Below are positions 2,065 through 20,311 of a stretch of 64,000 nt of DNA, one piece after another. Every line of letters begins with the position of its first letter. The stretch's first letter is position 1. Origin of the DNA: Zetaproteobacteria bacterium CG06_land_8_20_14_3_00_59_53 (lineage in GTDB: Bacteria; Pseudomonadota; Zetaproteobacteria; Mariprofundales; Mariprofundaceae); contig PEWE01000030.1 in assembly GCA_002779605.1 (NCBI GenBank), positions 124,001-188,000 on the forward strand. The letters run 5' to 3'. The notes below the pieces were generated by a model. It did not search any database. It had not been told where the DNA came from and saw only the letters and a list, made by a program, of their open reading frames with translations. A program made the position numbers and the translations under genes.

Positions 2065-3459
2065 CTACTTCAAAGCGTGCAGGATGGATTCGCAGGCCTT
2101 TTTGGCATCGGAGAACAGCATCATGGTTTTGTCCATGTAGAACAGATCGTTGTCCAGACCGGCATAACCGGCAGCCATCGAGCGCTTCACGAACACCACA
2201 TGCTTGGCCTTGTCCACATCCAGAATCGGCATGCCGTAGATCGGACTGGTCGGATCGGTCTTGGCCGACGGGTTGGTCACATCGTTGGCGCCGATCACCA
2301 GCGCCACATCGGCATCGACGAATTCCGGATTGATCTCGTCCATCTCCTGCACCAGATCATAGGACACATCCGCTTCGGCCAGCAGCACATTCATATGCCC
2401 CGGCATACGGCCTGCCACCGGATGGATGGCGAAACGCACCTTCACACCCTTGGCGGTCAGCACATCCACAACCTCTTTCAGCGCATGCTGCGCACGCGCC
2501 ACGGCCAGACCATAACCGGGCACGATGATCACGGAATCGGCATTCTGCAGCAGGAAGGCGGCATCCTCGGCGGCTCCCGATTTGTACGGGCGCTGCTCAC
2601 GCTCTTCGCCACCGGCAGCGGCCGTAGCACCGCCGAACCCGCCGAGCAGCACATTGAACAGCGAGCGGTTCATCGCCTTGCACATGATGTAGGAAAGGAT
2701 CGCACCGGAGGAACCGACCAGCGCGCCAGCCACGATCAGCATATTATTACCCAGTGTGAAGCCGATTCCTGCGGCAGCCCAACCGGAATAGGAGTTCAGC
2801 ATGGAGACCACCACCGGCATATCCGCACCGCCGATGGGTACGATCAACAGCACACCGAGCACCAGCGCGATGCCGGTCATGATCAAAAACGGCGTCCACT
2901 CACCATTCACGCAGAAGACGATACCAGAGCCGATCATCACGATACCCAGCAACAGGTTCACCCAGTGCTGCCCTGCGAAGACCAGCGGACGACCGGACAC
3001 CAGACCCTGCAGCTTGGCGAAGGCGACCACGGAAGCGGTGAAAGTGATGGCCCCGATGAAGGTGCCGAGGAAAAGCTCGATGCGGCTGGCCATATGCAGA
3101 CTGCCATCGGCTGCGGCGATACCGTAAGCGCCCGGATTATACAGCGCGGAGGTGGCGATCAGTACCGCGGCCAGACCGACCAGCGAATGCATGGCGGCCA
3201 CCAGCTGCGGCATATGGGTCATCGGAATGCTGCGCGCGATCAACGTACCGGCACCACCGCCGATGAGCATGGCGAGGAATATCCAGCCGTAGCTGTGCAC
3301 GCCCGGCATGTTCAGGGTCACAGCGACAGCCAGCGCCATGCCGATCATGCCGAACAGATTGCCGCGTCGTGCCGACACCGGGCTGGACAGCCCCTTGAGC
3401 GCGAGGATGAAAAGAACCGCAGCGACCAGATAGGCCATTGCCACCATATTTGCAGACAT
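2065..3459 (-). CDS. pntB: NAD(P) transhydrogenase subunit beta
   Basis: Membrane and NADP-binding subunit of the proton-translocating transhydrogenase, which moves hydride between NADH and NADP+ using the proton gradient. 464 aa, the usual family length. The N-terminal ~280 residues carry about nine hydrophobic segments (domain II). The C-terminal ~175 residues are the NADP-binding domain III, with VPGYGLAVARAQH and the loop GANDVTNPSAKTDPTSPIYG. The N-terminus MSANMVAMAYLVAAVLFILA matches the family. An AGGGG ribosome site lies 6 bases before ATG. It follows pntAB by 25 bases, completing a three-gene pnt operon. Confidence 0.97.
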   Translation of the reverse strand: MSANMVAMAYLVAAVLFILALKGLSSPVSARRGNLFGMIGMALAVAVTLNMPGVHSYGWIFLAMLIGGGAGTLIARSIPMTHMPQLVAAMHSLVGLAAVLIATSALYNPGAYGIAAADGSLHMASRIELFLGTFIGAITFTASVVAFAKLQGLVSGRPLVFAGQHWVNLLLGIVMIGSGIVFCVNGEWTPFLIMTGIALVLGVLLIVPIGGADMPVVVSMLNSYSGWAAAGIGFTLGNNMLIVAGALVGSSGAILSYIMCKAMNRSLFNVLLGGFGGATAAAGGEEREQRPYKSGAAEDAAFLLQNADSVIIVPGYGLAVARAQHALKEVVDVLTAKGVKVRFAIHPVAGRMPGHMNVLLAEADVSYDLVQEMDEINPEFVDADVALVIGANDVTNPSAKTDPTSPIYGMPILDVDKAKHVVFVKRSMAAGYAGLDNDLFYMDKTMMLFSDAKKACESILHALK

Positions 3460-3484
3460 GTTTAACCCCTAACTGATGCGCACA

Positions 3485-3829
3485 TTATTTGCGCTTTCTG
3501 AACATGGCCAGCATACGCTGCGTGACCAGAAAACCACCGAAGATGTTCACAGCCACCAGCGCCACGGCGATCAGGCCAAGGATGCTGCCGGTGTTCATCT
3601 CCGATGGTCCGGCGGCAAGAATCGCACCGACGATGATGATGCCGGAGATGGCATTGGTGACACTCATCAGCGGGGTATGCAGTGCCGGGGTCACATTCCA
3701 GACCACGTGATAACCGATGAACACGGCCAGCACAAACACTGTGAAACCGAACACAAAAGGATCGACGGCTGCGCCATGTGCGCCGCTCTCTGCAACCGCG
3801 GCAGCGGCCTGACTCATCTCGGCATTCAT
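3485..3829 (-). CDS. pntAB: NAD(P) transhydrogenase subunit alpha, membrane part (alpha-2)
   Basis: 114-aa protein with three hydrophobic helices and the conserved stretch [19 protein letters not shown] typical of the C-terminal membrane part of transhydrogenase alpha. In E. coli this part is fused to PntA; here it is split off, as in Rhodospirillum and many other proteobacteria. The N-terminus has a 20-residue Ala-rich head. Its ATG overlaps the pntA stop by 4 bases (ATGA), so the two alpha parts are translationally coupled. Confidence 0.95.
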
Positions 3830-4971
3830 GCCTTGCCTCCCTTGAGGAACTGCGGCTTGAGGAATTCGCCGCCGCGACAGAGCACCGCAGCCTCGATGAT
3901 TTCATCCTCCTGCACGGTATTCAGCCCGCCCTCGCCATCGCTCATCAGCATCAGAAAGTTGAGCAGATTGCGCGCGTACAGCTGGCTGGCATCGGCGGCC
4001 ACCAGCGAGGGGATATTGCTCTCGCCGAGCAGGGTGACACCGTGTTTGATCACGGTCTTGTCCAGCTCGGTAAGCGGGCAATTGCCGCCCACCCCGTTTG
4101 CACCCATACCCGCGGCCATATCGACGATCACCGAACCGGACTTCATCACCTTGACCACATCCTCGGTGACCAGCACCGGAGCAGGCCTGCCGGGAATCAG
4201 TGCAGTGGTGATCACGATATCGGATTTCGCGGCATGTTCGGCGATCAGTTCGGCCTGCTTCTGCTTGTATTCTGCACTCACCTCTTTGGCATAGCCGCCG
4301 GCATCCTCGGCATCCTCTTCCACCGGCACCTCGACGAACTTCGCACCCAGGCTTTCCACCTGTTCGCGCGCCGCGGCACGCACATCGAAGGCCTCGACCA
4401 TCGCGCCCAGCCTTCTGGCCGTGGCGATCGCCTGCAGACCGGCCACGCCGGCGCCCATCACCAGCACACGCGCCGGCTGCACGGTACCGGCAGCGGTCAT
4501 CATCATCGGGAAGAAACGGCGGTAGTGTTCGGCCGCCATCAGCACGGCCTTGTAGCCGGCAATATTGGCCTGGCTGGACAGCACATCCATGCTCTGCGCA
4601 CGCGAAATGCGCGGCACCATCTCCAGCGCGAAACAGGTTAGGCCGTGCGCGGCATAATCGCTGAGCAGCGGATTGGTGAACGGCGCGAACAGGCTGATCA
4701 CCGCGGCCCTGGCAGGCAGCAGTTTGATCTCGAACTTCTCCGGCGGGCGCACCTTGAGCACCACATCGGCGGCTTTAAGCAGCGTCTTGGCATCCTTGAC
4801 GATGCTCGCACCGGCGGCCTCGTAGTCGGCATCGGCAATCAGAGCGCCATGACCGGCACCGGCCTGCACCTGCACGGCAAAGCCCTGCGCGATGAATTTT
4901 TTGACAGTCTCGGGAGTTGCCGCAACGCGAGCCTCGTTGTCGCGTATTTCGGCGGGCACCACCAGCAGCAT
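3826..4971 (-). CDS. pntA: NAD(P) transhydrogenase subunit alpha, NAD-binding part (alpha-1)
   Basis: Soluble NAD(H)-binding domain I of the transhydrogenase, 381 aa, related to alanine dehydrogenase. Visible: N-terminal [18 protein letters not shown], the RAQSMD motif at residues 124-129 and the nucleotide-binding loop GAGVAG at 173-178. It ends just before the domain II helices, which are encoded by the next gene. A GGAG ribosome site sits 6 bases before ATG at 4971. First gene of pntA-pntAB-pntB. The 90 bases upstream presumably hold the promoter, but I could not pick out convincing -35 and -10 boxes. Confidence 0.96.
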
Positions 4972-6153: not shown

Positions 6154-6924
6154 TCAGGCCGGCTCAGCCGTGTTTCTGACCGCCTGCAAGCGCTGACGTA
6201 CCACCTCGAACAAGGTCACCCCTGTAGCTACCGACACATTAAGCGATTCGACATTGCCCGGCATAGGAATACTGAGCACGGAGTCGCATTGCTCGCGAAC
6301 CAGCCTGCGCATACCCTTGCCTTCTGCTCCCATCACCACACCGATGCGTCCGCTCAGGTCCGACTGATATATCGAAGCCTCGGCCTCGCCTGCCAGACCT
6401 ATCAGCCACAATCCCTTTTCCTGCAACTGCTGCATGGCTCGCACAAGATTGGTTACGGTCATCACAGGAAGACGGGAAATCGCACCGCATGCCGCCTTGG
6501 CGGCGACAGGCGATTCCACATCCGCCGCATGATCTCTGGGAACAATGACCGCCGAACAACCTGCAGCCTCGGCGCTGCGCACGCAGGCCCCGAGATTGTG
6601 AGGATCTGTCACACCATCGAGCAACAGCACAAGCCGAGCTTCCGATGCTCCGGGGGATTCGAGCCATACGCTGAAATCAAGTTTACGGGCAGTCGCGACG
6701 CGCGCCACAACCCCCTGATGCGCCACACCCTCGCCAAGTCGCTCCAAGGCCTGTCTCGGCTGGAATGAAATACGGATGCCGCGAACTTTCGCAAGGTGAA
6801 TCAGTTCATTGAGACGCGGATGCCCTTTACCGCGTTCGCCTTTGCCGCGCTCGATAACCAGCTCGCTGACCGGTTCGTCGGATTCCAGAGCATGCTTCAC
6901 CGCATGAATACCTGCCAATATCAA
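6154..6924 (-). CDS. rlmB: 23S rRNA (guanosine-2'-O-)-methyltransferase RlmB (TrmH/SpoU family)
   Basis: SAM-dependent 2'-O-methylation of 23S rRNA. 256 aa. An N-terminal substrate-binding domain (GIHAVKHALESDEPVSELV) precedes the SPOUT knot with motif 1 DGVTDPHNLGACVRSAEAAG, motif 2 GAEGKGM and motif 3 IPMPGNVESLNVSVA. The start is TTG at 6924, supported by GGAGGG 5 bases upstream and by the usual N-terminus just behind it. It is 47 bases downstream of the TPR gene, same strand, with a 15-bp AT-rich palindrome in the gap. Confidence 0.94.
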   Translation of the reverse strand: MILAGIHAVKHALESDEPVSELVIERGKGERGKGHPRLNELIHLAKVRGIRISFQPRQALERLGEGVAHQGVVARVATARKLDFSVWLESPGASEARLVLLLDGVTDPHNLGACVRSAEAAGCSAVIVPRDHAADVESPVAAKAACGAISRLPVMTVTNLVRAMQQLQEKGLWLIGLAGEAEASIYQSDLSGRIGVVMGAEGKGMRRLVREQCDSVLSIPMPGNVESLNVSVATGVTLFEVVRQRLQAVRNTAEPA

Positions 6925-6971: not shown

Positions 6972-9020
6972 TCAACCACCTGCCTTTTTCGCATCCGATG
7001 CTCTTGCCTTTCTTACCTCGGTCAGCGTATCGGCAATCGCCGCATCGCCCGGCATGATGGTCAGAGGCCGAGCAGCAAGTTGTTCGGCCTTCCCGAGATC
7101 ACCGCCACCCTGCAACAGACTGTAGGCAAAATTGTTCAATGTGGCCGGATCATCCGGCGCGACCTTCATCAACTGCTGCCAGAGATCGATGGCCCTGGCC
7201 CAATCTTTCTGAACCATGTAAGCCTGCGCACGGAACAACATCGACACATTGCTCTGCAGTGTACCCGGCCAGTGCGCTGACACATTCGCCCATGTCTCGA
7301 TAGCCTCCGCCTGCTGGCCGAGCTTGTACTGCAGCTCGCCGATCAGGCTCTCCAGCCCGGGGCCGTCCGCCTGACTCGTCCTCGCCCCCAGCAAGCCGGA
7401 AAGCGCCTGCTGCGGATCGCTTTCGGCCTTGGCGCGAGCCCAGACCAGCCAGACATCACCGTGCTCAGGATAGAGCTTGCGCAAGGCTTCGAGCTGCGTC
7501 AACGCTTGCGGCTTGCGGTTCAACTGCATCAGGGCAATCACACCGAGCAATTGCAGATCGGCATCCGGTTTTTTCACCCCATCGAGCAGCGCCAGCACCT
7601 CGGCACCGCGCCCCTGGCCCAGCAGGACTCTGGCGCGCGGCAGCAGATCGGCACTATCCAGCGCCTTCTGCATGGCCCGGATCCGCATCAGCCCCTGCTC
7701 CGCCTGCGCGGTGAAAGGACCGGGATGCACCTTGCCCGCCTCGATCAGGGTGACGAGCCGCTTCTCCGCCTCCTGCAGCCGGCCGGCACGTACATCCAGT
7801 TCCGCTTCGACCAGCGACTTCCTGTCCTTGTCCGCGATACCATCGACCATTTTCGCGGCCTCGCCGTAACGCCGCAGGGCAAACATGGCCATGATACGAT
7901 TGGTGATAGCGTCGTCGCTGTCCAGATCCACCGGCTTGCGCTCATCCAGCAACTCCAGACCCCACACAGGCTGGCCGCGGGCGATACACCACTGCACCAG
8001 GGCATTGAACTCGGATGCACTGCTCACAGGCTGCATGCCGTCGAGCAGACCGAGAAAGACTCCTTTGTCACCGCTCAGCACCTCGAAATACATGCGCACG
8101 ATCAGGCCCTGCCGGTCCTCCGGGTAGAACTTGGACAGACGGTCGATGAAGTATTTTTTCGCCTCGGCCGTTTTACCCATTTTCATCGCGAACATTCCGC
8201 CATTGAGCAGCGATTGCAGCGCCGGAGGCTGGCCGACCAGCGAAGCGCGAATGAACACATCCAGTGCGGCATCCGACTTGCCCTGCTGGGTCAGCGCGGC
8301 GGCATAACAGTTGAGGGCATCGATGGCGTCGGGATCCGCTTCGAGCAGCACAGCGAACAAGGCGCCGGCCTCAGCCGCCTTGCCGGCAGCAAGCAGGCTC
8401 TGCGCCCAATCCAGCTTTGCCAGATAATTCTGAGCATCAGCATCGACAAGCCGGGCAAACAAGCTGGCGGATTGCTCATAGTCGGCTGCCTGATAGGCAG
8501 CGCGGGCCTCCAGCATCTCGGCCATCCATTGCACATCCTTTGGCAGCGACTGGCGTATCCGCCCGGCCATCGCCAGCAATCTCTCCGGCTTCATGGCCGA
8601 ACGCGCAAAACCGTAATATTCCGAAAATCGCTGACGGTGAGCATCGTCGCCATAGGGCTGCATCAACAGGATAGTTTCCATCTCAGACAGGCCCTGCTCC
8701 ACCTTCCCGTCTGCGAACAAACTGGACATCAGCATGTAGCGCACACCCTTGTCATCCGGATAAATGTCCAGAGCCTTGCGCAGAGCAACCACACCCTCAC
8801 CCCATGCCTTCTGCTCCATCATTTCGCGTGCATGCTCGATCAGATTCTGCTGTTTCTTTCCAGGTGTCATCTGCCAGGCAGACCAGCCCAGAACACCTAC
8901 CAGACCAACAGCCAGCGAAACCAGAACCAGCAGCTTTATACCTACCAATAGGCGTTTCTGCTTTCGTTTCTGTGTTAACTTATTTGTCTTTCTTGATCTG
9001 TGTTTCTGTTTCTTAAGCAC
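6972..9020 (-). CDS. Membrane-anchored TPR-repeat protein linked to exosortase
   Basis: 682 aa with a GTG start at 9020 and GGGAG 9 bases upstream. Residues 1-23 are extremely basic (many Lys and Arg), residues about 25-50 are one hydrophobic helix (LLVGIKLLVLVSLAVGLVGV), and the rest is helical TPR repeats (for example KALDIYPDDKGVRYMLMSSL and WQQLMKVAPDDPATLNNFAY). This predicts an inner-membrane anchor with a large periplasmic TPR arm. TPR proteins such as PrsT often accompany exosortase loci. This one is head-to-head with the exosortase and only 18 bases separate the likely start codons. A role as scaffold for the surface-sorting system is inference. Confidence 0.8.
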   Translation of the reverse strand: MLKKQKHRSRKTNKLTQKRKQKRLLVGIKLLVLVSLAVGLVGVLGWSAWQMTPGKKQQNLIEHAREMMEQKAWGEGVVALRKALDIYPDDKGVRYMLMSSLFADGKVEQGLSEMETILLMQPYGDDAHRQRFSEYYGFARSAMKPERLLAMAGRIRQSLPKDVQWMAEMLEARAAYQAADYEQSASLFARLVDADAQNYLAKLDWAQSLLAAGKAAEAGALFAVLLEADPDAIDALNCYAAALTQQGKSDAALDVFIRASLVGQPPALQSLLNGGMFAMKMGKTAEAKKYFIDRLSKFYPEDRQGLIVRMYFEVLSGDKGVFLGLLDGMQPVSSASEFNALVQWCIARGQPVWGLELLDERKPVDLDSDDAITNRIMAMFALRRYGEAAKMVDGIADKDRKSLVEAELDVRAGRLQEAEKRLVTLIEAGKVHPGPFTAQAEQGLMRIRAMQKALDSADLLPRARVLLGQGRGAEVLALLDGVKKPDADLQLLGVIALMQLNRKPQALTQLEALRKLYPEHGDVWLVWARAKAESDPQQALSGLLGARTSQADGPGLESLIGELQYKLGQQAEAIETWANVSAHWPGTLQSNVSMLFRAQAYMVQKDWARAIDLWQQLMKVAPDDPATLNNFAYSLLQGGGDLGKAEQLAARPLTIMPGDAAIADTLTEVRKARASDAKKAGG

Positions 9021-9038
9021 TTGGATACACTCCCGCCG

Positions 9039-10637
9039 ATGTTAGATGCACTGATTCAACGACTCAATCCTGCAGCCTGGTGGTTGAGTGCGGCCCTGCT
9101 TAGCGCCCCCGCATACTACATAGCCCCGTGGTTTCTCCAATCATGGGCCACCGACCCCTATTTCAGCCACGGATGGATGGTCATGCTCTGGGGGGTGGGG
9201 CTGGCGATCTGGCGACTCTCTGCATCCGAACAAGAGCAGGAAGTAACAAGCGCAGGAGTCCGGCGAAACACATTGAGGCCTGTTTTCCTGACAACCCTGG
9301 AGCCGCTGATGCTCCCAACCGGTGCTTTCATACTTATGCTGGGACTGAGCCTTGATATTGCCACCCTGAAAGCGCTTGGCTGGATGTTTTCCATCTTCGG
9401 CCTGTTGCATTGGCGTCTCGGCGCAAAACGGTTCGGATATGTTGCCGCACCGCTTTATTTCACCCTGCTGTCCATCCCCTGGCCGTGGAGCATCGTGCAA
9501 TACATGGCGCTGCCGCTGCAGGAGGTATCGTCAACGATGGCCCGTTTCATCCTCGACACTCTGGGCCTGCCTGTCTGGCAGGAAGGCGTTACGCTGGATT
9601 CGGGGCGATTCAAGCTGGTTGTCGAGGAAGGCTGTTCCGGCATGCGCTCCTTTGTCGCCGTGCTCACCGTCGCCATTTATTTCATGGGCATGGGCTGGGG
9701 CAGCATCACCCAGCGCTGGCTGCATCCGCTGGTCGTTCTCATCATCATTCTTTGCGGCAATGGCATCAGGCTGGTAACCGCTCTTGGCATAGGTCACTAC
9801 TGGAGCCATGAATGGGCGATGATATGGGTGGAAGATATTTCACCCTTTCTATTGATTGTGTTCGAGGCGGCGCTTTTGCTGACATGGCTTGATAAGCCTG
9901 CGCATAGCTTCAGGACCAAAGCTGTGCCCCTGGCCGGGATCCCGTGCATCCTGAAAGAACTCTGGCAGGACAGTGCAGTTGCATTCACGGCTTCGCCCCC
10001 GGGATCGCTGCACCTCGGCGGACTTGCCCTGCTGCTTGTCGGCATCCTGTCCTTCGCCATTCCGGGCGAGAAGTCGAGCGTGGTTTTACCCGAATGGAAA
10101 ACCCCGGCCGACTGGCAGAGCATAGAATCGGGCGTGGTCGATGCCTCATCGAAAGAGATACAGGACGCCATGCAAGCCGGCGCCATCGTACGTGTGGTGC
10201 GCATGCAATCGCTGAGCAATCCGGGTGATATTGTTGACGGACAGATGATCATCAGCCTGGGCGGCCCCGGACGTGATGTGGACGACCCGCGCTTCTGCTA
10301 TCGCAGCAAAGGCTGGCGCATGCTGGCTGAGCAACTGCATAGCATTGACTCAACCACAGCCCCCCAGGTACCGGTAGTGAATGAAATCCTTGAAGAATTA
10401 CCGCGCATGCATACCACACGGCTGGACTGGTTCGCCTATCGGGTCGATGGTCGCTGGGTGCACGGCTATATGGAATTCCGTCTGCACCAGATGCTGGCCC
10501 GCGCCATGCGCCGCCTGGACAGCATCGCCGTGGTGCATATCTCCACCCCGCTCGGGCAAAGCGGCCACCGGGAGAATGAAATCCGCATGGCCCGGGAGCG
10601 CCTTGCAGCCATCTGGCAAACCATGCCCTTACAATAA
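9039..10637 (+). CDS. xrt: Exosortase fused to an EpsI-type C-terminal domain
   Basis: Polytopic transpeptidase thought to recognise PEP-CTERM signals and hand substrates to the cell surface. From ATG 9039 it is 532 aa. The N-terminal ~290 residues have about eight membrane helices. Expected active residues are Cys199 in EEGCSGMRSF, Arg244 in NGIRLV and a His in GHYWSHEW (253 or 257). The C-terminal ~230 residues, after another hydrophobic segment, resemble the EpsI/DUF3485 domain (GGPGRDVDDPRFCYRSKGW, YRVDGRWVHGY), so two usually paired functions are on one chain. The frame is open from a GTG at 9000, but no ribosome site supports either start. No exopolysaccharide genes are adjacent. Confidence 0.88.
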   Translation: MLDALIQRLNPAAWWLSAALLSAPAYYIAPWFLQSWATDPYFSHGWMVMLWGVGLAIWRLSASEQEQEVTSAGVRRNTLRPVFLTTLEPLMLPTGAFILMLGLSLDIATLKALGWMFSIFGLLHWRLGAKRFGYVAAPLYFTLLSIPWPWSIVQYMALPLQEVSSTMARFILDTLGLPVWQEGVTLDSGRFKLVVEEGCSGMRSFVAVLTVAIYFMGMGWGSITQRWLHPLVVLIIILCGNGIRLVTALGIGHYWSHEWAMIWVEDISPFLLIVFEAALLLTWLDKPAHSFRTKAVPLAGIPCILKELWQDSAVAFTASPPGSLHLGGLALLLVGILSFAIPGEKSSVVLPEWKTPADWQSIESGVVDASSKEIQDAMQAGAIVRVVRMQSLSNPGDIVDGQMIISLGGPGRDVDDPRFCYRSKGWRMLAEQLHSIDSTTAPQVPVVNEILEELPRMHTTRLDWFAYRVDGRWVHGYMEFRLHQMLARAMRRLDSIAVVHISTPLGQSGHRENEIRMARERLAAIWQTMPLQ

Positions 10638-10709
10638 CAAAGCTTTTCTTGACACCCCCCCCCTCGCCATCGTCACATTTCGCAAAATTTGTCTAATAGG
10701 AATGAACCT

Positions 10710-11336
10710 ATGAAAAAACCAATGATGATCGCAGCCCTGCTGCTCATGCCGCTGCTGCTGGCCACTAAAGCCGAGGCCGCACCTCTCTATGAAGGCACCG
10801 CTATCTATACCCTGCCGAATTCCACCCTCGTTACCATGAACTGGGCTATTGACAACCCAGGAACCAACGGGGCGGCCTATAGGTACAGATACCAATTAAT
10901 TGGCACCAGCAATAACTCCGCGCAAACCTTCGACTTTACCGCATTGACCGGTGTCACTTCAATTACACAGGGTGGCTCGAGCAGGACCCCCGGTATAACA
11001 AATTTCACCCAGACACCGAGCAGTGGAGTTCCAGTAACCGGATTGTCATCCCTGCAGTCGACTTTTGTAACCCCGGCCACTGCCACCGCATCCACATGGG
11101 CTGTTAATTTATTCTGGGACAGCAACGTCACCCCGGTCACGTCAGGTTCGGTCACCATTAATAACGTCACCATTAGCGGCATCGGCCCATCCGGTGCTGC
11201 CGGTGCTGGTGCCGCCACCCCTGGCGCACCGGAGCCGCAGACTTGGGCGCTGCTGATTACCCTAATGGGCTTCGCCACCTTCTGGTTGCGCCGTCGTCAG
11301 GATGACGAACAGCTGCAAGCAAGCATCGCCGCCTGA
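10710..11336 (+). CDS. PEP-CTERM sorting-domain protein, intact copy
   Basis: 208 aa, starting ATG 10710 (MKKPMMIAALLLMPLL) with AGGA upstream. A cleavable signal peptide ends near TKAEAA. The middle is Thr, Ser, Gly and Val-rich and probably beta-sandwich. Near the C-terminus is the PEP-CTERM signal: PEPQTWALLITLMG, a short hydrophobic stretch, then RRR. Unlike the common form, about 12 further residues, acidic and polar, follow the arginines (QDDEQLQASIAA). Exported, and presumably sorted by the adjacent exosortase. A strong terminator follows. Its paralog lies directly downstream. Confidence 0.88.
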   Translation: MKKPMMIAALLLMPLLLATKAEAAPLYEGTAIYTLPNSTLVTMNWAIDNPGTNGAAYRYRYQLIGTSNNSAQTFDFTALTGVTSITQGGSSRTPGITNFTQTPSSGVPVTGLSSLQSTFVTPATATASTWAVNLFWDSNVTPVTSGSVTINNVTISGIGPSGAAGAGAATPGAPEPQTWALLITLMGFATFWLRRRQDDEQLQASIAA

Positions 11337-11362
11337 TCGCACGACAGCAACGAGAACCCCAA

Positions 11363-11389
11363 GGGGCGCGTTACCGCGCCCCTTTTTTT
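11363..11389 (+). terminator. Rho-independent terminator after first PEP-CTERM gene
   Basis: Stem GGGGCGCG / CGCGCCCC with loop TTAC, followed by seven T (11383-11389), 26 bases after the stop codon. It ends transcription of the exosortase and first PEP-CTERM gene, so the second paralog probably has its own promoter. Confidence 0.92.
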
Positions 11390-11555
11390 GTTTGCATGGA
11401 TTGCCCCCACATGCGGTATGCGCCCGCATTGCCCTGTGAAAAGCCCACGCCACCACGCTGAATCCTGCCTTTCCCTGTCACCTGTTATGGTTATTGACCA
11501 AAATCTCCCGCGTTCCTACATTCGGGACTTGCCATTAGGATCCGCACGAACCTCA

Positions 11556-12172
11556 ATGAAAAAGACTCTCACGCTTGCCGCACTGCTGCTGATGCCGCTG
11601 CTGTTCACCCCGTCCCAAGCGCAGGCAGCCCCGCTGTATTCCGGCACAAGCCTGTTTGCTTTGAACGGCGGTTCGGACTCGATGAGCGTTAACTGGTCTG
11701 TGTACGCTTCTACAGCCACCGCGCCGGGTGGACTCGCAGGATTGGGAGCCGGCTATGTCTATCAATACTCACTGGCATCCGGGAATGGAAGTGCAGGGAC
11801 GTATAATTTCTCAGCCTTGCTCGGAGCCTCGGTTCCCATCACCGGGGCCATGTTCGCCGACGCACCCAATCTACTCGTTACGTCCCAAACCCCGAGCGGA
11901 GCAACCTCTGCAAGCGCTCTGAGTGCCACGCTAACTACCAATGGCCCGGTGGGCGATGCGGTCGGTTTATGGTGGAGCAGTACGGCAGCCCCGGTGATCT
12001 CGAGCGTCACCATCAATGGCGTGACCGACACGTCAACGATAATGGCGCCCGGTGTGCCAGGCCTGCCAGAACCGCAAACCTGGCGCTGCTGATTACCCTC
12101 ATGGGTTTCACCACATGGTGGCTAAGCCGCAGACAAGACGACGATACACAGGAATCCAATATCGCCGCCTGA
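11556..12172 (+). pseudogene. Second PEP-CTERM protein, frameshifted at its sorting signal
   Basis: Paralog of the gene at 10710. Start ATG 11556 (MKKTLTLAALLLMPLL), with a signal peptide ending near SQAQAA and a Ser, Thr and Gly-rich body. In the paralog the signal is coded CAG ACT TGG GCG CTG. Here one G is missing (CAA ACC TGG CGC TGC TGA), so translation stops at 12092, right after PEPQTWRC. In the +1 frame the rest of the signal is intact (ALLITLMGFTTWWLSRRQ and a polar tail) to a stop at 12170-12172. As read, the protein keeps the PEP motif but loses the membrane segment and arginines. A sequencing error, recent mutation, or a phase switch are all possible. Confidence 0.85.
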
Positions 12173-12196
12173 TTATACGACAACCTTTCAACCCCC

Positions 12197-12225
12197 GGGG
12201 GCGCGACATCGCACCGTGCTTTTTT
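12197..12225 (+). terminator. Degenerate terminator after second PEP-CTERM copy
   Basis: It sits where the first copy has its terminator and looks like a decayed version: a GC-rich left arm, loop ACAT, right arm CGCACCGTGC with mismatches, then six T. Pairing is imperfect, so function is uncertain. Confidence 0.4.
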
Positions 12226-12264
12226 GCACTGGCCAGGCGATTTGCCTTGCCGTAGGCTCAATAA

Positions 12265-14565
12265 ATGCGATACCTTGGCTCACTTCTTCGCCGTGCTTGC
12301 CTGATGCTTGCGCTGCTGAGCTGCGGCCTGCTGCTGGCATTCTTCCCGTCAACCGGCCAGATACCCGAAATCCGAAGCCTGGACATTCAGGGAGTCAAAC
12401 GACTTGCCTTTCTGCCGACACCTCACGGCTGGCCGGTTTCCGTGGCGACAAGCGGCAACCATGTGCTGCTAAGCAACGGCGAAACCTGGCGCGGCCTACA
12501 AAACATCAACTGGCGCGATGTCTCCGCGCCACACATCGAACAGACCTTCGACACCGGGAACACCAATGCGGCGATGGTGATGCTGGGTAACCGGGTCTAT
12601 GTTCTTGCCAATTATCACGGTATCACGATGTTCGATATGGATGCGGACGGAAAACTGACCCGGATCGGTCGCTGGAGGCTGCCACCGCCTGCCGATCACG
12701 GGAGGATGATGGTTGGCCTGCAGCGTGATGGCAGGCAATACCTGTACCTATCCATCAAACCGGAAGGCAACTGGAAAGATTGGCCTGTAAACCCCGCCAT
12801 ACCCGAACCGGGGCTGTATATGCTTGATGTGACCGATGCAAAAGACATTCAGGTGTATCACCTTGGCAAACAACCAATGTTCAGCACAATCGCTGAAGGC
12901 TACGGCTATATCATCCAGGGCAGCCGACTTGATATCTATGCGCTGGATCGACCCACCAGCCCGCGTCGAATCAGCGGCTACCAGGCGACAGGCAACATCA
13001 CCGGCTTGAGCATTGAGCAGGGGCATGCCTGGCTAACCGTTCAGGGGAGTTCTCTGGAATTGATTGATGTGAACGAGGCTTACGCACCCAGACTTCTGGC
13101 CCAAAGCAACGAAGGGGACATGCGACATGCGACGTCTCTGGCTGCACAAGGCGATTGGGCCTATGTGCTCGAGTCCGGAATCGGTTACGACGGTCCGGAT
13201 GGCGGCATGCATGTCTTCCATTGGCACGATGGGCAATTGCAACACATCAGGCACGCGACGTGGGGGCGCAGCAATATGCAGCGTATTACTCTGGCCGGTA
13301 ATGCGGCCTATGTAACCGACCAGTATTACGGGCTCTGGCGATTCGATATCAGCCAGCCGGACCTGCCGCAGCGCGGCGCACTATTCATGAGCGCCGGTGA
13401 AAACCAGCAACTTCTCATTGAAAAAAATATCGGACTTCTCAATCTGGAGTGGGGAGGGACGGTAGGGATCCTCGACGCTTCAGATCCCCTGCACATCGGA
13501 ATCAAGGGGTATTACCGTCCGGGGCGTTTCGACGACTATGCCGTGGGCATCAGTGGGTCTTATTTCTACTATGGCAAACATGCATCACGGCGCATCATCG
13601 ACATACACGATCCAGCAAATCCCACCGAGGCGGGTGAATGGAAACTCCCGGGGCAACCGCTTATGCCACCGCAGAAATGGAGGCATCTTTTCTATGAATG
13701 GCTGCGAACAGGGAAACAACAGATCAGCCTGCTAGCCTTCGACATGGGCAATCCGCTCCATCCACGCCAGATTGGCAACATGATTCTACCCGAAGAACTA
13801 TCCTTAGCCTTCGGTAGCTCTGCCACGGATGGACAGCGCATGTTCGCCGTGGCCGACAACGGCATTGTTTCCGTGGATATATCTGATCCGGCTCGCATGC
13901 AAATCACCGGCATCTACTCTGAGCAGGGTATCGGCGCGCGAGCACCATACACATGGCAGGGTTCGGGGCGGCGCACTGCATTGAACGGCGATTACCTGTA
14001 TGTCATACAGGGCGCTGAAGATATGGATTCTCCACACATTGCCGTCATCGACGTATCCGACACAAAGCATATGCGCCGGGTGCATAACACCGCCGATACC
14101 CCTCCCGCCTTTCAGGATGACTGGTTTGATGAGCGTTTACTGCATCAGGGAGACATGCTCAACGACATGGTGATTCACGATGGCAAACTCTATGTCAGCG
14201 ATTACTGGGGCGGCATACGCATCTACGATTGCAGCATTCCGTTTCGTCCGCGACTGAGCCACTGGGAATTCCAACCCTACCTTTCACTACTCCCTGCCGA
14301 TTGGAGTCGTCAGCGTTACAAAGAGGCTGTGGCCTCTGGCAAATTGCACAAGTCTCTCAACCTGGATACCGAAAAATGGGAGCAACGACATGTCATTGGT
14401 CATCGTTTGTGGGATAGGCCCTTGGAATATCATCCCGGCTACGAACTGTTCGGCTGGAATATCGGCGGCTTTGTCGGCCAGTACCTGTTACAACCCAAGC
14501 TGGGAGGCATCGCTGTCTACCGCATATCTGATACTGTTACTCCCTCTGACAGCACGAAAAATTAG
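12265..14565 (+). CDS. LVIVD-repeat beta-propeller protein, exported or membrane-anchored
   Basis: 766 aa, starting ATG 12265 with AGG about 9 bases upstream. An N-terminal hydrophobic segment (residues about 10-28) serves as signal or anchor. The rest is built of some eleven ~45-residue repeats ending in the LVIVD-type pattern, for example LYMLDVTDAKDIQVYHLG, VGILDASDPLHIGIKGYY, RIIDIHDPANPTEAGEW, IVSVDISDPARMQITGIY and VIDVSDTKHMRRVHN. The family is predicted to fold as a beta-propeller and is found on bacterial surfaces. No enzyme motif is seen. It lies directly after the PEP-CTERM pair on the same strand, so a surface or adhesion role with the exosortase system is an inference from position. 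Confidence 0.8.
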   Translation: MRYLGSLLRRACLMLALLSCGLLLAFFPSTGQIPEIRSLDIQGVKRLAFLPTPHGWPVSVATSGNHVLLSNGETWRGLQNINWRDVSAPHIEQTFDTGNTNAAMVMLGNRVYVLANYHGITMFDMDADGKLTRIGRWRLPPPADHGRMMVGLQRDGRQYLYLSIKPEGNWKDWPVNPAIPEPGLYMLDVTDAKDIQVYHLGKQPMFSTIAEGYGYIIQGSRLDIYALDRPTSPRRISGYQATGNITGLSIEQGHAWLTVQGSSLELIDVNEAYAPRLLAQSNEGDMRHATSLAAQGDWAYVLESGIGYDGPDGGMHVFHWHDGQLQHIRHATWGRSNMQRITLAGNAAYVTDQYYGLWRFDISQPDLPQRGALFMSAGENQQLLIEKNIGLLNLEWGGTVGILDASDPLHIGIKGYYRPGRFDDYAVGISGSYFYYGKHASRRIIDIHDPANPTEAGEWKLPGQPLMPPQKWRHLFYEWLRTGKQQISLLAFDMGNPLHPRQIGNMILPEELSLAFGSSATDGQRMFAVADNGIVSVDISDPARMQITGIYSEQGIGARAPYTWQGSGRRTALNGDYLYVIQGAEDMDSPHIAVIDVSDTKHMRRVHNTADTPPAFQDDWFDERLLHQGDMLNDMVIHDGKLYVSDYWGGIRIYDCSIPFRPRLSHWEFQPYLSLLPADWSRQRYKEAVASGKLHKSLNLDTEKWEQRHVIGHRLWDRPLEYHPGYELFGWNIGGFVGQYLLQPKLGGIAVYRISDTVTPSDSTKN

Positions 14566-14753
14566 TGCTGCATCCGAATTCCTTACGCGGCATGCATTTC
14601 AAGCTGTTTCGCATCCATAGTGACAGGCATGCATCGGGTCTATATGGTATCTTGCGGGAAACGTTCATGGAGGGGATTTTACATGCCTGATCTCCATCCT
14701 CAGACAGTTTGCCGATCAGCATCATCGATCACATTCACCCTAGGGAGAAATGC

Positions 14754-15122
14754 ATGAAACATACAATGACCATTGCAGCAATCGCACTGCTTGCCACTGT
14801 CGGCATAACCGGCACGTCCCACGCAGGTGCGGAACAAAAATGTGCGACCTGCCATAATTTCGATAGCAGCAACAAAGTCGGCCCAGGACTTGGCGGAATC
14901 ATCGGACGCCCGGCCGGCAAGCTCGAGGGATTCAAGTACGGCCCCGGCCTATCGGATGCCAACTGGAACTGGGATGAAGCCAAGCTGCGCGAGTGGATGT
15001 GCAACTCTAAAGACGCCGTGAAGAAGTTCACCGGCGACGACAAGGCCAAGACCAAGATGCCACCACAGAAGGTCTGTGATCCGGCCGCACAGAACGAGGT
15101 GCTGGCAAAGCTGAAGGGTTAA
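14754..15122 (+). CDS. Small periplasmic monohaem c-type cytochrome
   Basis: 122 aa, start ATG 14754 with GGGAG 7 bases upstream. A signal peptide ends near SHAGA. The haem site CATCH follows at about residue 29, with a Met ligand expected in TKMPP near residue 104. The layout GPGLGGIIGRPAG and FKYGPGLSDANWNWDE matches class I cytochromes of the c2/c550 type. Two further cysteines flank the Met-ligand region (WMCNS and KVCDP), so a disulfide that clamps this loop is possible. Probable periplasmic electron carrier; its partner is not evident here. A terminator follows. Confidence 0.92.
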   Translation: MKHTMTIAAIALLATVGITGTSHAGAEQKCATCHNFDSSNKVGPGLGGIIGRPAGKLEGFKYGPGLSDANWNWDEAKLREWMCNSKDAVKKFTGDDKAKTKMPPQKVCDPAAQNEVLAKLKG

Positions 15123-15141
15123 GCCCTTTATGTCAAAATGG

Positions 15142-15166
15142 AAAGGCGGCCTGCGGGCTGCCTTTT
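15142..15166 (+). terminator. Terminator after cytochrome c gene
   Basis: Stem AAAGGCGGCC / GGCTGCCTTT with loop TGCG and one G-T pair, ending in a T-run. It could also work from the opposite strand (AAA on the left arm), separating convergent genes. Confidence 0.8.
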
Positions 15167-15227
15167 CTCACTCAGTAACCCAGCTACGAAAATCAGCCGA
15201 TCCGATTCGGCCAGGAGCACTGCTTTC

Positions 15228-15827
15228 CTATTGGCCGCGCACAAGACGGATATTTGCATACAATAGTTTTGGCCTGACCTCGATAAAACCGACGTTATAA
15301 AATTGGGTGGCCCAAGCCTGATTCGCATCGGCGACAAAGGGGGAAGACGACCAGTACCAATCCCCCGGAGATGGAAAAACCTGCGTATTCAACGCCGGAT
15401 AGTTGCACTGCTCTTCCATGATTGAATTCAGCTCTTTGACATTGGGAACACGCCAATCCGTGTATCCTGCAAACCCGCCAGTGCTGTTCACCTGTGCGAC
15501 CCATTCCAAAGCTCCCAGCCAGGTTAATGGCGAGGCAGCACCGGCACAACCTGCCCAGTCCCATACCTTGCCTTCCGAACAACGTTTCCACATCAACCCG
15601 GTATCCGAGTCCGTCACAGTTCCATCTCCGTTGTCTGTGAAATCTGAAGTGGGCGTACTGGCAACAATCGTCGATTGACATGTCTGTGCGGCCACGGCCG
15701 GGCAACTCCATAAAAACATGGCAACAAACGCATAAAAAACACCACTGACTTGCAGCAAGCGACGGCCTCCCTTGCGCCCGTCACAATCTTCAAACCGACA
15801 CTCGCTCATATCGTTCTCCCGTTTCAT
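15228..15827 (-). CDS. DUF1566 domain protein, exported
   Basis: 199 aa. An N-terminal hydrophobic segment ending in WSCPAVAA is a likely signal peptide, although a 25-residue polar head precedes it. A start downstream of the annotated ATG is possible. The remainder is one DUF1566 (Lcl C-terminal-like) domain with the usual landmarks: DTGLMWKRC, TDWRVPNVKELNSI, WYWSSSP and the final ANIRLVRG. The family is secreted or surface-bound and its function is mostly unknown. Its ATG overlaps the stop of the upstream Calx-beta gene by 4 bases, so the two are coupled. Confidence 0.83.
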   Translation of the reverse strand: MKRENDMSECRFEDCDGRKGGRRLLQVSGVFYAFVAMFLWSCPAVAAQTCQSTIVASTPTSDFTDNGDGTVTDSDTGLMWKRCSEGKVWDWAGCAGAASPLTWLGALEWVAQVNSTGGFAGYTDWRVPNVKELNSIMEEQCNYPALNTQVFPSPGDWYWSSSPFVADANQAWATQFYNVGFIEVRPKLLYANIRLVRGQ

Positions 15828-17104
15828 CTGACACCCCCATCGCGAACGAGACGGACATGATCTATCCAGTCTTTCTTGCCCAGACCAGTATTATCGGGAT
15901 AACTGAAACCTACGCCCCATACAAGAACCGGATGATAGGCTGATGTTGCAGACCAGTACCATGCCTTGAACGTGTTGGGGAAATAGTTCAAGTCAATGGA
16001 AAAGCCGGTTGTCGAGACCCCGTAATCCTTGATTGAATTCAGCTCTTCCTTACCAGGCATCCGCCAATCGGTATAACCGCACAAAGCCACTGCATTCACT
16101 GCAGCAACGAATTTCTCAGTATCACAATTCACAGTGTCCGCGCAGATTCCAAGGTTTGAACCTCCCGCAAATCCCCCGTTCGAGGTTGGATCGGAATTGT
16201 ACCAGGAGTATTCGTAGGTGGAGTCCCGCAGGCCACCTGCGCCTGCCGGTGTTTTCACCTCCCACATCAGGCCGGTGACATTATCCTGTACACAGTCCCA
16301 TGGGGTGATGCTGTAAATCGCTGTCTGGTCGGCTAAAGGGGCACCTGTGCTATCCAATTTGGTAAAAGTGAATCCGGCCCGGCCATCCGCATTACTGTTT
16401 AGAAACGGATCAGCATCCCGCCCATATGCTGCGTCCTGGCCTAGCAACACAGAAGTTGCAACAGCAGGCGAAAGACTCACTGCATCCGCCAATATTGTGA
16501 TGCCGGTATCATTCATGCGGGAGACATCATCGTTGATAATGGTACCGGTTGCGGTTGCTGAGCCCAGCAAAAGGTTTCCGGACGGTGAGAAAAGCGTCAT
16601 GATCAGGGTTTCATCCGATTCGGGTACGGACTCCCCCTTCACATCCACCTTGATAATCGCAGTGGTACTCCCTGCAGGTATCGTCAGTGTGCCGCTGACC
16701 GGGCTGTAATCCGCACCGGCACGTGCCGTGCCGTCTACTGTTGCATACCTCACATCCACATGGCCGTCAGCCAGACCGCTCAGGGTAACAGCAAAGATCA
16801 GACGGGTTTTACCCGACAGTCCTTCAACAACGCTGCCACCGCTAATGTTTGCCGTAGGCAGGACATCATCAGCTTCATGCCATTCACGCCTTCTATTGGA
16901 CTTCCCTGAATCCATTCTGTCTTCGTCATCGGTTTCAACATGTGCGGTATAGGCATGGTCTTTCGACTTGTCCTTTCGATGACCATCACCGGCAACAGCT
17001 TGATTACCCGACATAAAAAATGGGAGCAACAATAATAGACACGCGAGGCCGCTTAGCATTCTCCGCAACAGCGCCCCGCCCATGAGACATGCAAATTCAA
17101 GCAT
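15824..17104 (-). CDS. Calx-beta plus DUF1566 surface protein
   Basis: 426 aa, start ATG 17104 behind a G-rich ribosome site. Order: signal peptide (to about residue 38), a charged low-complexity stretch rich in Asp, Lys, Arg and His, one Calx-beta domain (about 85-195, with VRYATVDGTARAGADYSPVS and VPESDETLIMTLFSP), then a DUF1566 domain (GLMWEVKTPAG, TDWRMPGKEELNSI, YWSATS, HVRLVRDGG). Calx-beta modules bind calcium in other proteins. It is coupled to a second, shorter DUF1566 gene. Probably a secreted or surface-exposed pair. No PEP-CTERM signal is seen in either. Confidence 0.82.
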   Translation of the reverse strand: MLEFACLMGGALLRRMLSGLACLLLLLPFFMSGNQAVAGDGHRKDKSKDHAYTAHVETDDEDRMDSGKSNRRREWHEADDVLPTANISGGSVVEGLSGKTRLIFAVTLSGLADGHVDVRYATVDGTARAGADYSPVSGTLTIPAGSTTAIIKVDVKGESVPESDETLIMTLFSPSGNLLLGSATATGTIINDDVSRMNDTGITILADAVSLSPAVATSVLLGQDAAYGRDADPFLNSNADGRAGFTFTKLDSTGAPLADQTAIYSITPWDCVQDNVTGLMWEVKTPAGAGGLRDSTYEYSWYNSDPTSNGGFAGGSNLGICADTVNCDTEKFVAAVNAVALCGYTDWRMPGKEELNSIKDYGVSTTGFSIDLNYFPNTFKAWYWSATSAYHPVLVWGVGFSYPDNTGLGKKDWIDHVRLVRDGGVR

Positions 17105-17226: not shown

Positions 17227-17910
17227 CTAGAGCCACCCCTCTTCCTTGAAAGACAGCACCTGCGTTCCCGCCACCAGAAAATGATCCAGCAGCTTGATAT
17301 CCAGCGGGGCACAGGCCTCAATCATACGCCGGGTCAGCGCCATATCCTCTTCACTGGCGCGCGCTGTGCCACCGGGATGATTGTGAAACAGGATCAGGCC
17401 CTTGGCATCGAGTTCCAGCGCCCGCTTCATCAGGTTGCGCGGATACACCGCAGTGCGGTCCACCGTGCCTTCGAACATGATCTGTGTGGCCAGCAGGCGA
17501 TGCTGCTGATCGGTAAACACCGCGCCGAAGCATTCCATGCCGCGCGACTGCAGCAAAAAGCGCAGATGTGCTTTGACCTTCTCCGGCCTGTCGAACACTG
17601 AACGCCCCGGCAAATCAGAAGCCAGATATCGCATCTCGGCCTGTTTGATGATACTCAGGAACACCGCCGCTTTCTCCCCCACGCCCGGCACCTGCGCCAA
17701 CTCCACCACCGGAGCATCAAATATCCCGGCCAGGGTGTGAAAGGTTTCAATCAGGCGTTTGGCCACCGGCTTTACGTCGATTCTCGGTATGGCGTAGGTA
17801 AGCAGCAACTCGACAACCTCGTCATCGCGAAAACCTTCAAAACCGTGCCCGGCGAAGCGCGCCCTGAGTCGTTCGCGATGCCCCCTGACCGATTCGTCCA
17901 CCGTTCCCAT
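17227..17910 (-). CDS. radC: RadC-type JAB/MPN domain protein
   Basis: 227 aa from ATG 17910 (MGTVDESVRGHRERLRARF). The frame is open upstream, but that part overlaps the divergent moeB gene and lacks family resemblance. An N-terminal helix-hairpin-helix part (VPGVGEKAAVFL) is followed by the JAB metalloprotease-like fold with the JAMM motif HNHPGG...SEED (His-x-His and Ser-x2-Asp). Widespread in bacteria. The name comes from an old DNA-repair assignment that has not held up, and the real activity is uncertain. Divergent from moeB. Confidence 0.88.
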   Translation of the reverse strand: MGTVDESVRGHRERLRARFAGHGFEGFRDDEVVELLLTYAIPRIDVKPVAKRLIETFHTLAGIFDAPVVELAQVPGVGEKAAVFLSIIKQAEMRYLASDLPGRSVFDRPEKVKAHLRFLLQSRGMECFGAVFTDQQHRLLATQIMFEGTVDRTAVYPRNLMKRALELDAKGLILFHNHPGGTARASEEDMALTRRMIEACAPLDIKLLDHFLVAGTQVLSFKEEGWL

Positions 17911-17988
17911 GCCGCATTTATACACCCGGCCCGACGAATTGAACAAGGACGCATTGAACAGGCCATCCCCTGCCGCCATAATCGGCTG

Positions 17989-19146
17989 ATGAACAGCATC
18001 CTTTCCCCCGAAGAACTTGCACGCTTCAACCGCCACATCATCCTGCCGCAGGTCGGCCTTGAAGGTCAGGAAAAGCTCAAGCAAGCGAAGGTGCTGTGTA
18101 TCGGTACCGGCGGACTGGGCAGCCCGATCGCGCTTTATCTATCCGCTGCCGGCGTGGGTACACTGGGCCTGGTGGATTTCGACGTGGTGGACGATTCCAA
18201 TCTGCAACGCCAGATCGCCCACTCCACAGCCGATATCGGTCGCCCGAAGGTGGAGAGCGCCCGCGACAAACTGATCGGCATCAACCCGCATCTTAAGGTG
18301 AACCTGCATGGCGAGGGCATCCGTCGAGACAATGTACGCGCCATCGTGCGCTCATACGATCTGGTAGTGGACGGCACCGATAACTTCCCGACACGCTATC
18401 TGGTCAACGATGCCTGTGTGCTGGAGGGCAAACCGCTGATCTATGCCTCGATCTTCCAGTTCGAAGGGCAGGCCACAGTATTCAACCATCAGGACGGCCC
18501 CTGCTATCGCTGCCTGTATCCCGAGCCGCCTCCGCCGGGCCTGGTGCCCTCCTGTGCCGAGGGCGGTGTACTGGGTGTGTTGCCGGGTGTGATCGGGGTC
18601 ATACAGGCCACCGAAGCCATCAAGATCATCCTCGGCAAGGGCAGCAGCCTGTCCGGACGATTGTTGTTGTACGATGCCATGGACATGAAATTCCGCGAGG
18701 TTAAGCTGCGCCGTGACCCTTCGTGCCCGGCCTGCGGTGACCATCCCGTCATCCACGAGGTCGTCGAGTACGAACAATTTTGCGGCCTGCCGCCCACCGA
18801 GACACAACGACAGGAGGAAGCCTTGGCTGACTACGACATCACCCCGAAGGAACTGAAAACCATGCTGGACGACAGCGACAAGCTGTTTGTACTGGATGTG
18901 CGCGAGCCGCACGAAATCGAGATCTGCGCCATCGATGGAACCTCGAAGATTCCGCTCGGCCAGATCGCCGAACGCTATGCCGAAGTCCCCAGCGATATGC
19001 CGGTGGTGGTGCACTGCAAGCTCGGCGGCCGTTCCGCGCAGGCGGTCGAGTTCCTGCGCTCCAGGGGCTACGACAATGTCATGAATCTGTCGGGCGGCAT
19101 CATCCGCTGGATCGACGACATCGACGGCTCACTGACCAAATACTGA
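17989..19146 (+). CDS. moeB: MoeB/ThiF-type adenylyltransferase fused to rhodanese
   Basis: 385 aa, start ATG 17989 (MNSILSPEELARFNRHIILP). The E1-like domain has the ATP loop GTGGLGS (39-45), conserved Cys189 (SCAEGG) and zinc cysteines 172/175 and 246/249. The C-terminal rhodanese domain (about 283-385) has the active Cys343 in VVHCKLGGRSA. In this MoeZ-like layout the first domain adenylates the C-terminal Gly-Gly of a sulfur carrier (MoaD, ThiS or similar) and the rhodanese supplies sulfur. Which carrier is served cannot be told from here, since no moaD, thiS or cysO is adjacent. Confidence 0.92.
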   Translation: MNSILSPEELARFNRHIILPQVGLEGQEKLKQAKVLCIGTGGLGSPIALYLSAAGVGTLGLVDFDVVDDSNLQRQIAHSTADIGRPKVESARDKLIGINPHLKVNLHGEGIRRDNVRAIVRSYDLVVDGTDNFPTRYLVNDACVLEGKPLIYASIFQFEGQATVFNHQDGPCYRCLYPEPPPPGLVPSCAEGGVLGVLPGVIGVIQATEAIKIILGKGSSLSGRLLLYDAMDMKFREVKLRRDPSCPACGDHPVIHEVVEYEQFCGLPPTETQRQEEALADYDITPKELKTMLDDSDKLFVLDVREPHEIEICAIDGTSKIPLGQIAERYAEVPSDMPVVVHCKLGGRSAQAVEFLRSRGYDNVMNLSGGIIRWIDDIDGSLTKY

Positions 19147-19231: not shown

Positions 19232-20143
19232 TTAAACCGGTTGAGCGGCCGTCTGCTCCTGCATGGACTGCACGGCCGAATCCTCGGCTTTGAGCTCTTC
19301 GATGCACCATGCCGAGGCATCGGCCAGCAGGGCCGAAACCAGACGGTGGTTCATGTCATGACCGGTACGCTCGCCTTCAAAGGCACCGACCACCGGAAGA
19401 CCGGCCAGCGACAGATCGCCGACGGTATCCAGAATCTTGTGGCGCACGCATTCATCCTCGTAACGCAGGCCGCCTTCGTTCACCACGCGGAAGGCATCCA
19501 GCACGATGGCGTTCTCCAGCGAACCGCCCAGCGCAAGACCGGCCTTCTGCAGGGCTTCGATCTCGTGCAGGAACCCGAAGGTGCGCGCACGCGCCACTTC
19601 GCGGGTGTAAGCCTGGGTGGAGAAATCGATATGCGCTTCACGATGACGCAGCAGCGGATGATCGTAATCCAGCAGGTAGCTGATCTTGAAGCCGCGCGCC
19701 GGATGCAGACTGCATTCGCGGTTGCCGTCCTGCACCGTCACCTTCTTCAGCACGCGGATCACTTTCTTGGCAGCCGACTGCTCGCGGATACCTGCGCACT
19801 GGATGAGGAACACGAAGGGTGCCGAAGAACCATCCATGATCGGCACTTCAGGACCGTCCACTTCGATAATAGCATTGTCGATACCCAGACCGGCAAGGGC
19901 TGAAAGCAGATGCTCGACGGTGCCGATATACACATCATCGCGGCCCAGCGTCGTGCACATGCGGGTATCGGTGACGAACTCGGAACGTGCAGGAATCTCG
20001 GTAACCTTATCGTCATGCAGGCGATGGAACACGATGCCGGCATCCACCGGCGCAGGGCGAAGCCAAAGTCCGACCTTATGCCCGGAGTGCAGGCCGATGC
20101 CACTGCATCGAATCGGATGCTTCAGGGTTCTCTGCGGAATCAT
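19232..20143 (-). CDS. lpxC: UDP-3-O-acyl-N-acetylglucosamine deacetylase
   Basis: Zinc enzyme for the first committed step of lipid A synthesis. 303 aa, close to the E. coli length. Expected zinc ligands are His78 (GTVEHLLSALAG), His235 and Asp239 (RHKILDTVGDL); the catalytic His262 is in GHDMNH. GGAGG lies 5 bases before ATG 20143. It is the last gene of the division cluster, 168 bases after ftsZ, the same order as in E. coli. That gap may carry its own promoter. Confidence 0.97.
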   Translation of the reverse strand: MIPQRTLKHPIRCSGIGLHSGHKVGLWLRPAPVDAGIVFHRLHDDKVTEIPARSEFVTDTRMCTTLGRDDVYIGTVEHLLSALAGLGIDNAIIEVDGPEVPIMDGSSAPFVFLIQCAGIREQSAAKKVIRVLKKVTVQDGNRECSLHPARGFKISYLLDYDHPLLRHREAHIDFSTQAYTREVARARTFGFLHEIEALQKAGLALGGSLENAIVLDAFRVVNEGGLRYEDECVRHKILDTVGDLSLAGLPVVGAFEGERTGHDMNHRLVSALLADASAWCIEELKAEDSAVQSMQEQTAAQPV

Positions 20144-20311
20144 GGATACCTCCGGGTCTGTTTAAACAATCGTATCCGGCTTAACAGGCGTGCTCAGACT
20201 ACCCGTGTCGGGAAGGGTATACGTGACGCATACCACAAACCCCGCGCATGGTGCCATATTGCACGCTGCCCGCAAAGCCTTGTTTGACGAATGGTTTGCC
20301 TTTGCTCTACC

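Follow-up and report, generated by a model that had tools for sequence, protein, structure and literature searches.

A candidate mobile cassette pairing an exosortase of an unnamed clade with a single PEP-CTERM substrate in a Zetaproteobacterium

For the exosortase family, the established or proposed route comprises export of the substrate by Sec, its retention by the C-terminal tail, recognition of a motif in this tail at the outer face of the inner membrane, attack by a cysteine, and transfer to an acceptor. The family was defined by the presence of the motifs C-x-G, N-x-x-R and H-x-x-x-G (Haft 2006, PMC1569441). The corresponding three residues are reported to be critical in the related archaeosortase A (ArtA), in which the third one is an arginine that is critical for activity (review PMC9263693). 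According to one report (PMC12188702), PEP-CTERM systems stabilise exopolysaccharide (EPS) at the cell surface. A sorting system is considered to be dedicated when, within a genome, the sorting enzyme has just one target (PMC3237569). The literature that we searched yielded no paper naming both exosortases and Zetaproteobacteria.

The window analysed here, i.e., the whole stretch of 64,000 nt, belongs to the 2.37-Mb genome, 99.95 % complete and designated G000, of an iron-oxidiser-like bacterium, and contains an island coding for a TPR protein, an exosortase-EpsI fusion, two putative substrates and an LVIVD propeller (Table 1). The island is flanked on one side by RlmB, folate and transhydrogenase genes, and on the other side by radC, lpxC and the dcw cluster; the GC content does not set the exosortase and TPR genes apart. 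Further along the window, positions 19232-37469 and 40687-47002 hold lpxC and the dcw cell-wall and division cluster, followed by an RND efflux operon with a TetR-type regulator, all of them ordinary neighbours. Exosortase relatives were sought in 100 relatives of G000, in 78 genomes of its class and in 398 genomes of its phylum; sampling was deep in this phylum only, and the clade is known from four genomes. Among the relatives named below, G001 and G003 belong to the same genus as G000, G007 to the same family, and G065 to another family of the same phylum. The comparator set of exosortases (n = 72) consisted mostly of proteins from the phylum recovered with PF09721, together with plasmid-borne examples of XrtA, XrtV and XrtD. 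We consider it fairly likely that the island is a horizontally moving, dedicated cassette of an unnamed exosortase clade, operating by the mechanism proposed below.

Table 1. Positions in the window of the island, its genes and the neighbouring features.
Feature	Position	Strand	Description	Models
rlmB-type rRNA methyltransferase	6154..6924	-	Left border of the island, outside it	
Island	6972-14565		Genes for the TPR protein, exosortase-EpsI fusion, substrate 1, substrate 2 and LVIVD propeller	
TPR protein	6972..9020	-	682 aa, N-terminal TM helix	PF14559 and other TPR models
Exosortase-EpsI fusion	9000..10637	+	545 aa from GTG; ATG 13 codons in	PF09721 and PF11984, over cut-off
Substrate 1	10710..11336	+	208 aa; signal peptide, PEPQTW-TM-RRR tail and short acidic C-terminal extension	TIGR02595
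Intrinsic-terminator-like hairpin	11361..11384	+	10 pairs then T-run, directly 3' of substrate 1	
Substrate 2	11556..12172	+	ATG at 11556, stop at 12092; TM/basic tail in other frame to 12172	
LVIVD-repeat beta-propeller protein	12265..14565	+	766 aa, N-terminal signal/anchor	PF08309 (60 bits, cut-off 20)
Cytochrome c	14709-15122		Same strand as the plus-strand genes of the island	
radC	17227..18084	-	Right border of the ancestral insertion site, outside the island	

The exosortase domain is of the eight-helix type and is fused to EpsI at its C-terminal side. Matches to PF09721 (118.9 bits, cut-off 25.7, E 3e-34) and to TIGR04178 (41.4 bits, cut-off 23) place it within the superfamily. The EpsI/DUF3485 domain exceeded the cut-off of PF11984 (43.2 bits against 26.1, E 5e-11) and stayed under that of TIGR02914 (32.9 bits, cut-off 42.8), which the G065 member surpassed with 48.4 bits. 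A previous sequence-only reading of this DNA had singled out the presence of both partners on one chain; the fusion is indeed there, but it is not unusual, given that exosortase-EpsI fusions were already reported (Haft 2006, PMC1569441). The score with the general exosortase model TIGR02602 was under the cut-off (76.6 bits against 105.55; 77-80 bits for the other members), and none of the named Xrt/Crt subtypes (A, B, C, D, J, N, O, T, V, W and CrtA-C) reached its own: the top-scoring one was XrtW, with 80 bits against 425, and the others remained below about 38 % of their cut-offs. In the phylogenetic tree, the enzyme and its relatives grouped on a long stem (support 100/99), apart from XrtA, XrtV and XrtD. 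By these scores, it is a member of the superfamily that is neither a canonical exosortase nor any of the named Xrt types, and by the tree it forms a separate, so far unnamed clade. Sequence searches identified no credible relative of solved structure for either the exosortase or the LVIVD protein, and a search of IMG/VR did not return any match. A different exosortase-like protein, with the canonical His and an apparent C-terminal CAAX-protease-like region, is encoded in another Zetaproteobacterium (G053:C3:341797-342510) and is XrtE-like by eye; additionally, G065 has a second exosortase-like membrane protein (2859-4010 of its locus), seemingly without the catalytic Cys.

The active-site positions of the window exosortase are Cys212, Asn254, Arg257 and Glu278, the last one in the place usually occupied by His. 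The motifs Cys212-Ser-Gly and Asn254-x-x-Arg257 are kept in the four members of the clade, with the same spacing as in the comparators, and the sequence WVE[DQ]I[SG][PA] is found in all four instead of the third motif, H-x-x-x-G. The third catalytic position is therefore Glu in 4/4 clade members versus His in 72/72 comparator exosortases, a change that went unnoticed in the sequence-only reading and that stands out most among the features of the cassette. This difference does not derive from a misalignment, because Asn, Arg and Glu are situated at +42, +45 and +66 from Cys, a gap-free spacing that is the same in the comparators. We also considered whether His266, which all four members share, might compensate as a catalytic residue; this was unconvincing because many XrtA proteins have a His at this position too. 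Even clade members with identities as low as 40 % retain the Cys, Asn and Arg motifs unchanged, from which we argue for a working enzyme, and the exosortase probably still processes its substrate.

The tail of substrate 1 scored over the cut-off of TIGR02595 (17.9 bits against 16) and under that of Pfam PF07589 (14.6 bits against 20.7). Its AlphaFold2 model (mean pLDDT 70) consists of a beta-sandwich and then a C-terminal helix; the top fold match was a cohesin, with E 2.5e-3 and TM-scores of 0.33-0.43, and we consequently claim only a beta-sandwich for this fold. The two substrates were initially read as very similar small proteins with PEP-CTERM tails, and this was only half right. Substrate 1 does carry the tail, but both products are about 40 % identical, the close similarity not extending outside the signal peptide and tail, and substrate 2 has no intact motif-helix-basic tail. 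One base is missing from its gene relative to substrate 1, resulting in a -1 frameshift directly after PEPQTW (about position 12083); the annotated frame ends ...PEPQTWRC*, two codons past the motif, and the helix and basic cluster (ALLITLMGFTTWWLSRRQDDDTQESNIAA*) run on in another frame. Because this downstream frame still encodes the conserved tail, the break would be either recent or an assembly error, and could thus correspond to early decay or to such an error. A short acidic extension following RRR, RRRQDD...(I/F)(A/T)A (window positions 11307-11336 in substrate 1), is common to three substrates from Zetaproteobacteria and to the other frame of substrate 2; to our knowledge, it is usually absent from ordinary PEP-CTERM tails.

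As anticipated by the sequence-only reading, the TPR protein is a membrane protein: it has a single TM helix at residues 25-43, with a strongly basic N-terminus ahead of it, and is expected to be located in the inner membrane with the TPRs in the periplasm. It scored 113 bits with TIGR02917 (PrsT), under the equivalog cut-off of 312, and is by this measure distantly PrsT-like. Its orthologues adjoin the exosortase gene, in divergent orientation, in the four loci (48, 39 and 27 % identity). TPR genes similar to this one also occur near 10 comparator exosortases; having a TPR neighbour is thus a recurring trait and not a speciality of the island. The LVIVD propeller, likewise detected in the earlier reading, is present in two of the four loci (G000 and G003), which rules it out as a core component, and it is, judging by this distribution, an accessory of the cassette. 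The G003 copy occupies the same place and is 59 % identical; the predicted structure is all-beta, of low confidence (pLDDT 52), with PDB matches of the propeller type only. Between the LVIVD gene and radC, positions 14709-17104 of the window contain the cytochrome c gene and then two overlapping DUF1566/Lcl_C genes, one of them with a Calx-beta domain. These three genes were found in G000 only, and in G003 the LVIVD gene abuts radC.

The exosortase was found in 3/78 genomes of the class and in 4/398 genomes of the phylum, namely in G000, G003, G007 and G065 only. A search of named genomes with one exosortase sequence gave no match, and a search with an alignment recovered only two MAGs, SZUA-26 and SZUA-181, that were already in the set. 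The TPR protein, the Xrt-EpsI fusion and a tail-bearing substrate occur together in all four genomes with the exosortase, so that the co-occurrence proposed for the whole set of genes holds for these three, but not for the LVIVD protein. G065 might be taken for a substrate-less exception, which was ruled out by a six-frame reading: a convergent gene directly downstream of the exosortase gene, on the opposite strand, codes for a DUF4114 protein ending PENDTWILLLSAGLFMALTLWWRARP..., whose tail (PENDTWILLL...WWRAR) matches the type and is missed by the profile models. Thus, the body of the substrate varies among loci, the tail type being constant.

Comparison of the insertion sites showed that radC and rlmB overlap in G001, which has an empty site without the island, and that the island is situated exactly between these two genes in G000 and G003; the core of G007 is at another site, near panB/panC/panD-like genes (names assigned by eye). 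The island of G003 is bordered at both ends by a 25-bp perfect direct repeat (locus coordinates 7389-7413 and 14255-14279), corresponding to the radC/rlmB junction that occurs once in G001 and that takes in the radC end with its stop codon, together with the rlmB start. By comparison, 280 random pairs taken from this stretch gave a longest match of 14. The repeat may be the trace of a duplication that accompanied insertion, or a means of precise excision. No integrase was seen. For several flanking proteins, the G000 sequence is nearer to that of G001 than to that of G003 (e.g., pntA, 89 % versus 80 %), so both a precise loss through the repeat and a repeated gain are possible. In the explanation that we favour, the cassette moves horizontally.

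A genome-wide profile search of G000 identified one exosortase and one PEP-CTERM tail over the cut-off, that of substrate 1; two other, sub-threshold matches were rejected because they lack the motif and the order of elements of the tail. Similarly, G003 and G007 each have one tail over the cut-off, directly downstream of the exosortase gene. One enzyme with one such tail in G000, and the single tails of G003 and G007, agree with the definition of a dedicated system (PMC3237569), and, together with the recurrence of the core in four genomes, favour the earlier description of the island as self-contained. The same description had it devoid of polysaccharide genes, which is correct for the island, and none was seen beside the exosortase in the stretches scanned at the four loci, but G000 has an EPS-type locus on another contig, with relatives of WcaJ, WcaI, GalE and FkbM. 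Two undecaprenyl-phosphate sugar transferases are encoded outside the contig of the island, one of them in this EPS-type cluster. The locus could supply the acceptor, and the genes might constitute an ordinary EPS-linked PEP-CTERM/exosortase system, only separated, with the substrate coupled to the polysaccharide of a distant locus. Such an arrangement would suit the stabilisation of EPS described in PMC12188702, as well as the comparator exosortases inspected on plasmids, which sit in EPS loci. We nonetheless deem it unlikely, because EPS genes adjoin the exosortase in none of the clade loci and there is essentially one substrate, not many. Furthermore, no XrtA-type marker reached its cut-off among the EPS-locus genes scanned (209 bits with TIGR03013, cut-off 393), and the regions directly upstream of the two substrates showed no sigma-54-like site.

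Less probable still is that the system is decaying or inactive, with a Glu enzyme that no longer cleaves and a broken tail of substrate 2 signalling its loss. The replacement of the catalytic His, the frameshift in the second substrate and the lack of the cassette in most relatives would all be consistent with decay. However, the Glu is common to the four members of a deep clade that kept Cys, Asn and Arg, the reading frames are open in all of them, the exosortase dN (0.33) is well under a saturated dS of 2.2, and intact tails remain in 4/4 genomes. Finally, the cytochrome c had been included in the unit, with a speculated role in surface electron transfer, on account of its proximity on the same strand; this and the affiliation of the relatives to the Zetaproteobacteria are the whole case for an electron-transfer display system, to which we assign a very low probability. 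The cytochrome c has a signal peptide and no PEP-CTERM tail, and the substrates have no haem-binding motif. The cytochrome gene is missing from the orthologous island of G003, which excludes it from the cassette, and the ORFs that neighbour the loci of G007 and G065 do not include it. We found no evidence for a role in electron transfer.

In the dedicated cassette that we favour, substrate 1 would be exported by Sec and remain anchored in the inner membrane through the helix and the RRR cluster of its C-terminal tail. The exosortase would recognise PExxTW at the outer face of this membrane and cleave there, with Cys212 as the putative nucleophile and Arg257 in support, and the fused EpsI domain probably hands the acyl-enzyme intermediate to an acceptor, be it a glycan, a lipid or water. 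The TPR protein may act as a periplasmic scaffold for both substrate and enzyme, and the LVIVD propeller could be an optional accessory partner in the envelope of two of the genomes. The predicted product would be a single small protein with a beta-sandwich fold, either exposed on the surface of the cell or set free from it.

A bolder reading, which we advance tentatively and with more doubt than confidence, is that these genes represent a new Cys-Arg-Glu class of exosortases, with altered chemistry or another acceptor, within a minimal, mobile surface-display cassette (TPR, Xrt-EpsI and one substrate) that is independent of EPS. If true, Cys-Arg-Glu would be a third variant beside the Cys-Arg-His of exosortases and the Cys-Arg-Arg of archaeosortase A. 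A clade with the third residue swapped, and Cys and Arg kept, offers a natural experiment as to whether this residue acts as a general base or as a structural partner, or can be dispensed with. Comprising a single enzyme, a single EpsI domain and a single substrate, with no EPS locus next to it, the cassette is close to the smallest testable unit, and bears on the long-standing questions of the exosortase acceptor, the catalytic mechanism and the function of EpsI.

The cassette shares with the XrtA PEP-CTERM/EPS system with PrsT (Haft 2006, PMC1569441) a PF09721 enzyme with C-x-G and N-x-x-R, a PEP-CTERM substrate, the presence of EpsI and a TPR partner, here distantly PrsT-like. It differs in the low score of the exosortase with the XrtA model (76 bits, cut-off 208), the Glu in place of an invariant His, a TPR protein under the PrsT cut-off, a single substrate instead of many, and a locus without EPS genes or the sigma-54-type site of XrtA systems with PrsK/PrsR, none being evident directly upstream of the cassette substrates. 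Its tail, PEPQTWALL, resembles the PEPxxWA of the XrtV/PEPxxWA-CTERM system, and XrtV also pairs with EpsI, there as a separate gene (Novosphingobium plasmid p2); nevertheless, the cassette is under the cut-offs for both enzyme and tail (76/313 and 20/35 bits), and XrtV has His, belongs to a separate clade in the tree and is found in loci carrying EPS genes. The models for XrtD (VPLPA-CTERM) and XrtW, of 486-494 residues, approach the size of the fusion and were among the top-scoring ones, but with 72-91 bits against cut-offs of 400-425; the cassette tail is PExxTW, not VPLPA, and XrtD has His and groups elsewhere. ArtA from Haloferax volcanii shares its superfamily with the cassette enzyme and, like it, has a residue other than His at the third catalytic position, although this residue is Arg (Arg253) and not Glu; ArtA acts on PGF-CTERM substrates, and its lipid attachment has been shown. 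Lastly, the rhombosortase/GlyGly-CTERM dedicated systems (PMC3237569) possess an unrelated family of enzymes, but have the same organisation as the cassette, with one enzyme and one target encoded by adjacent genes.
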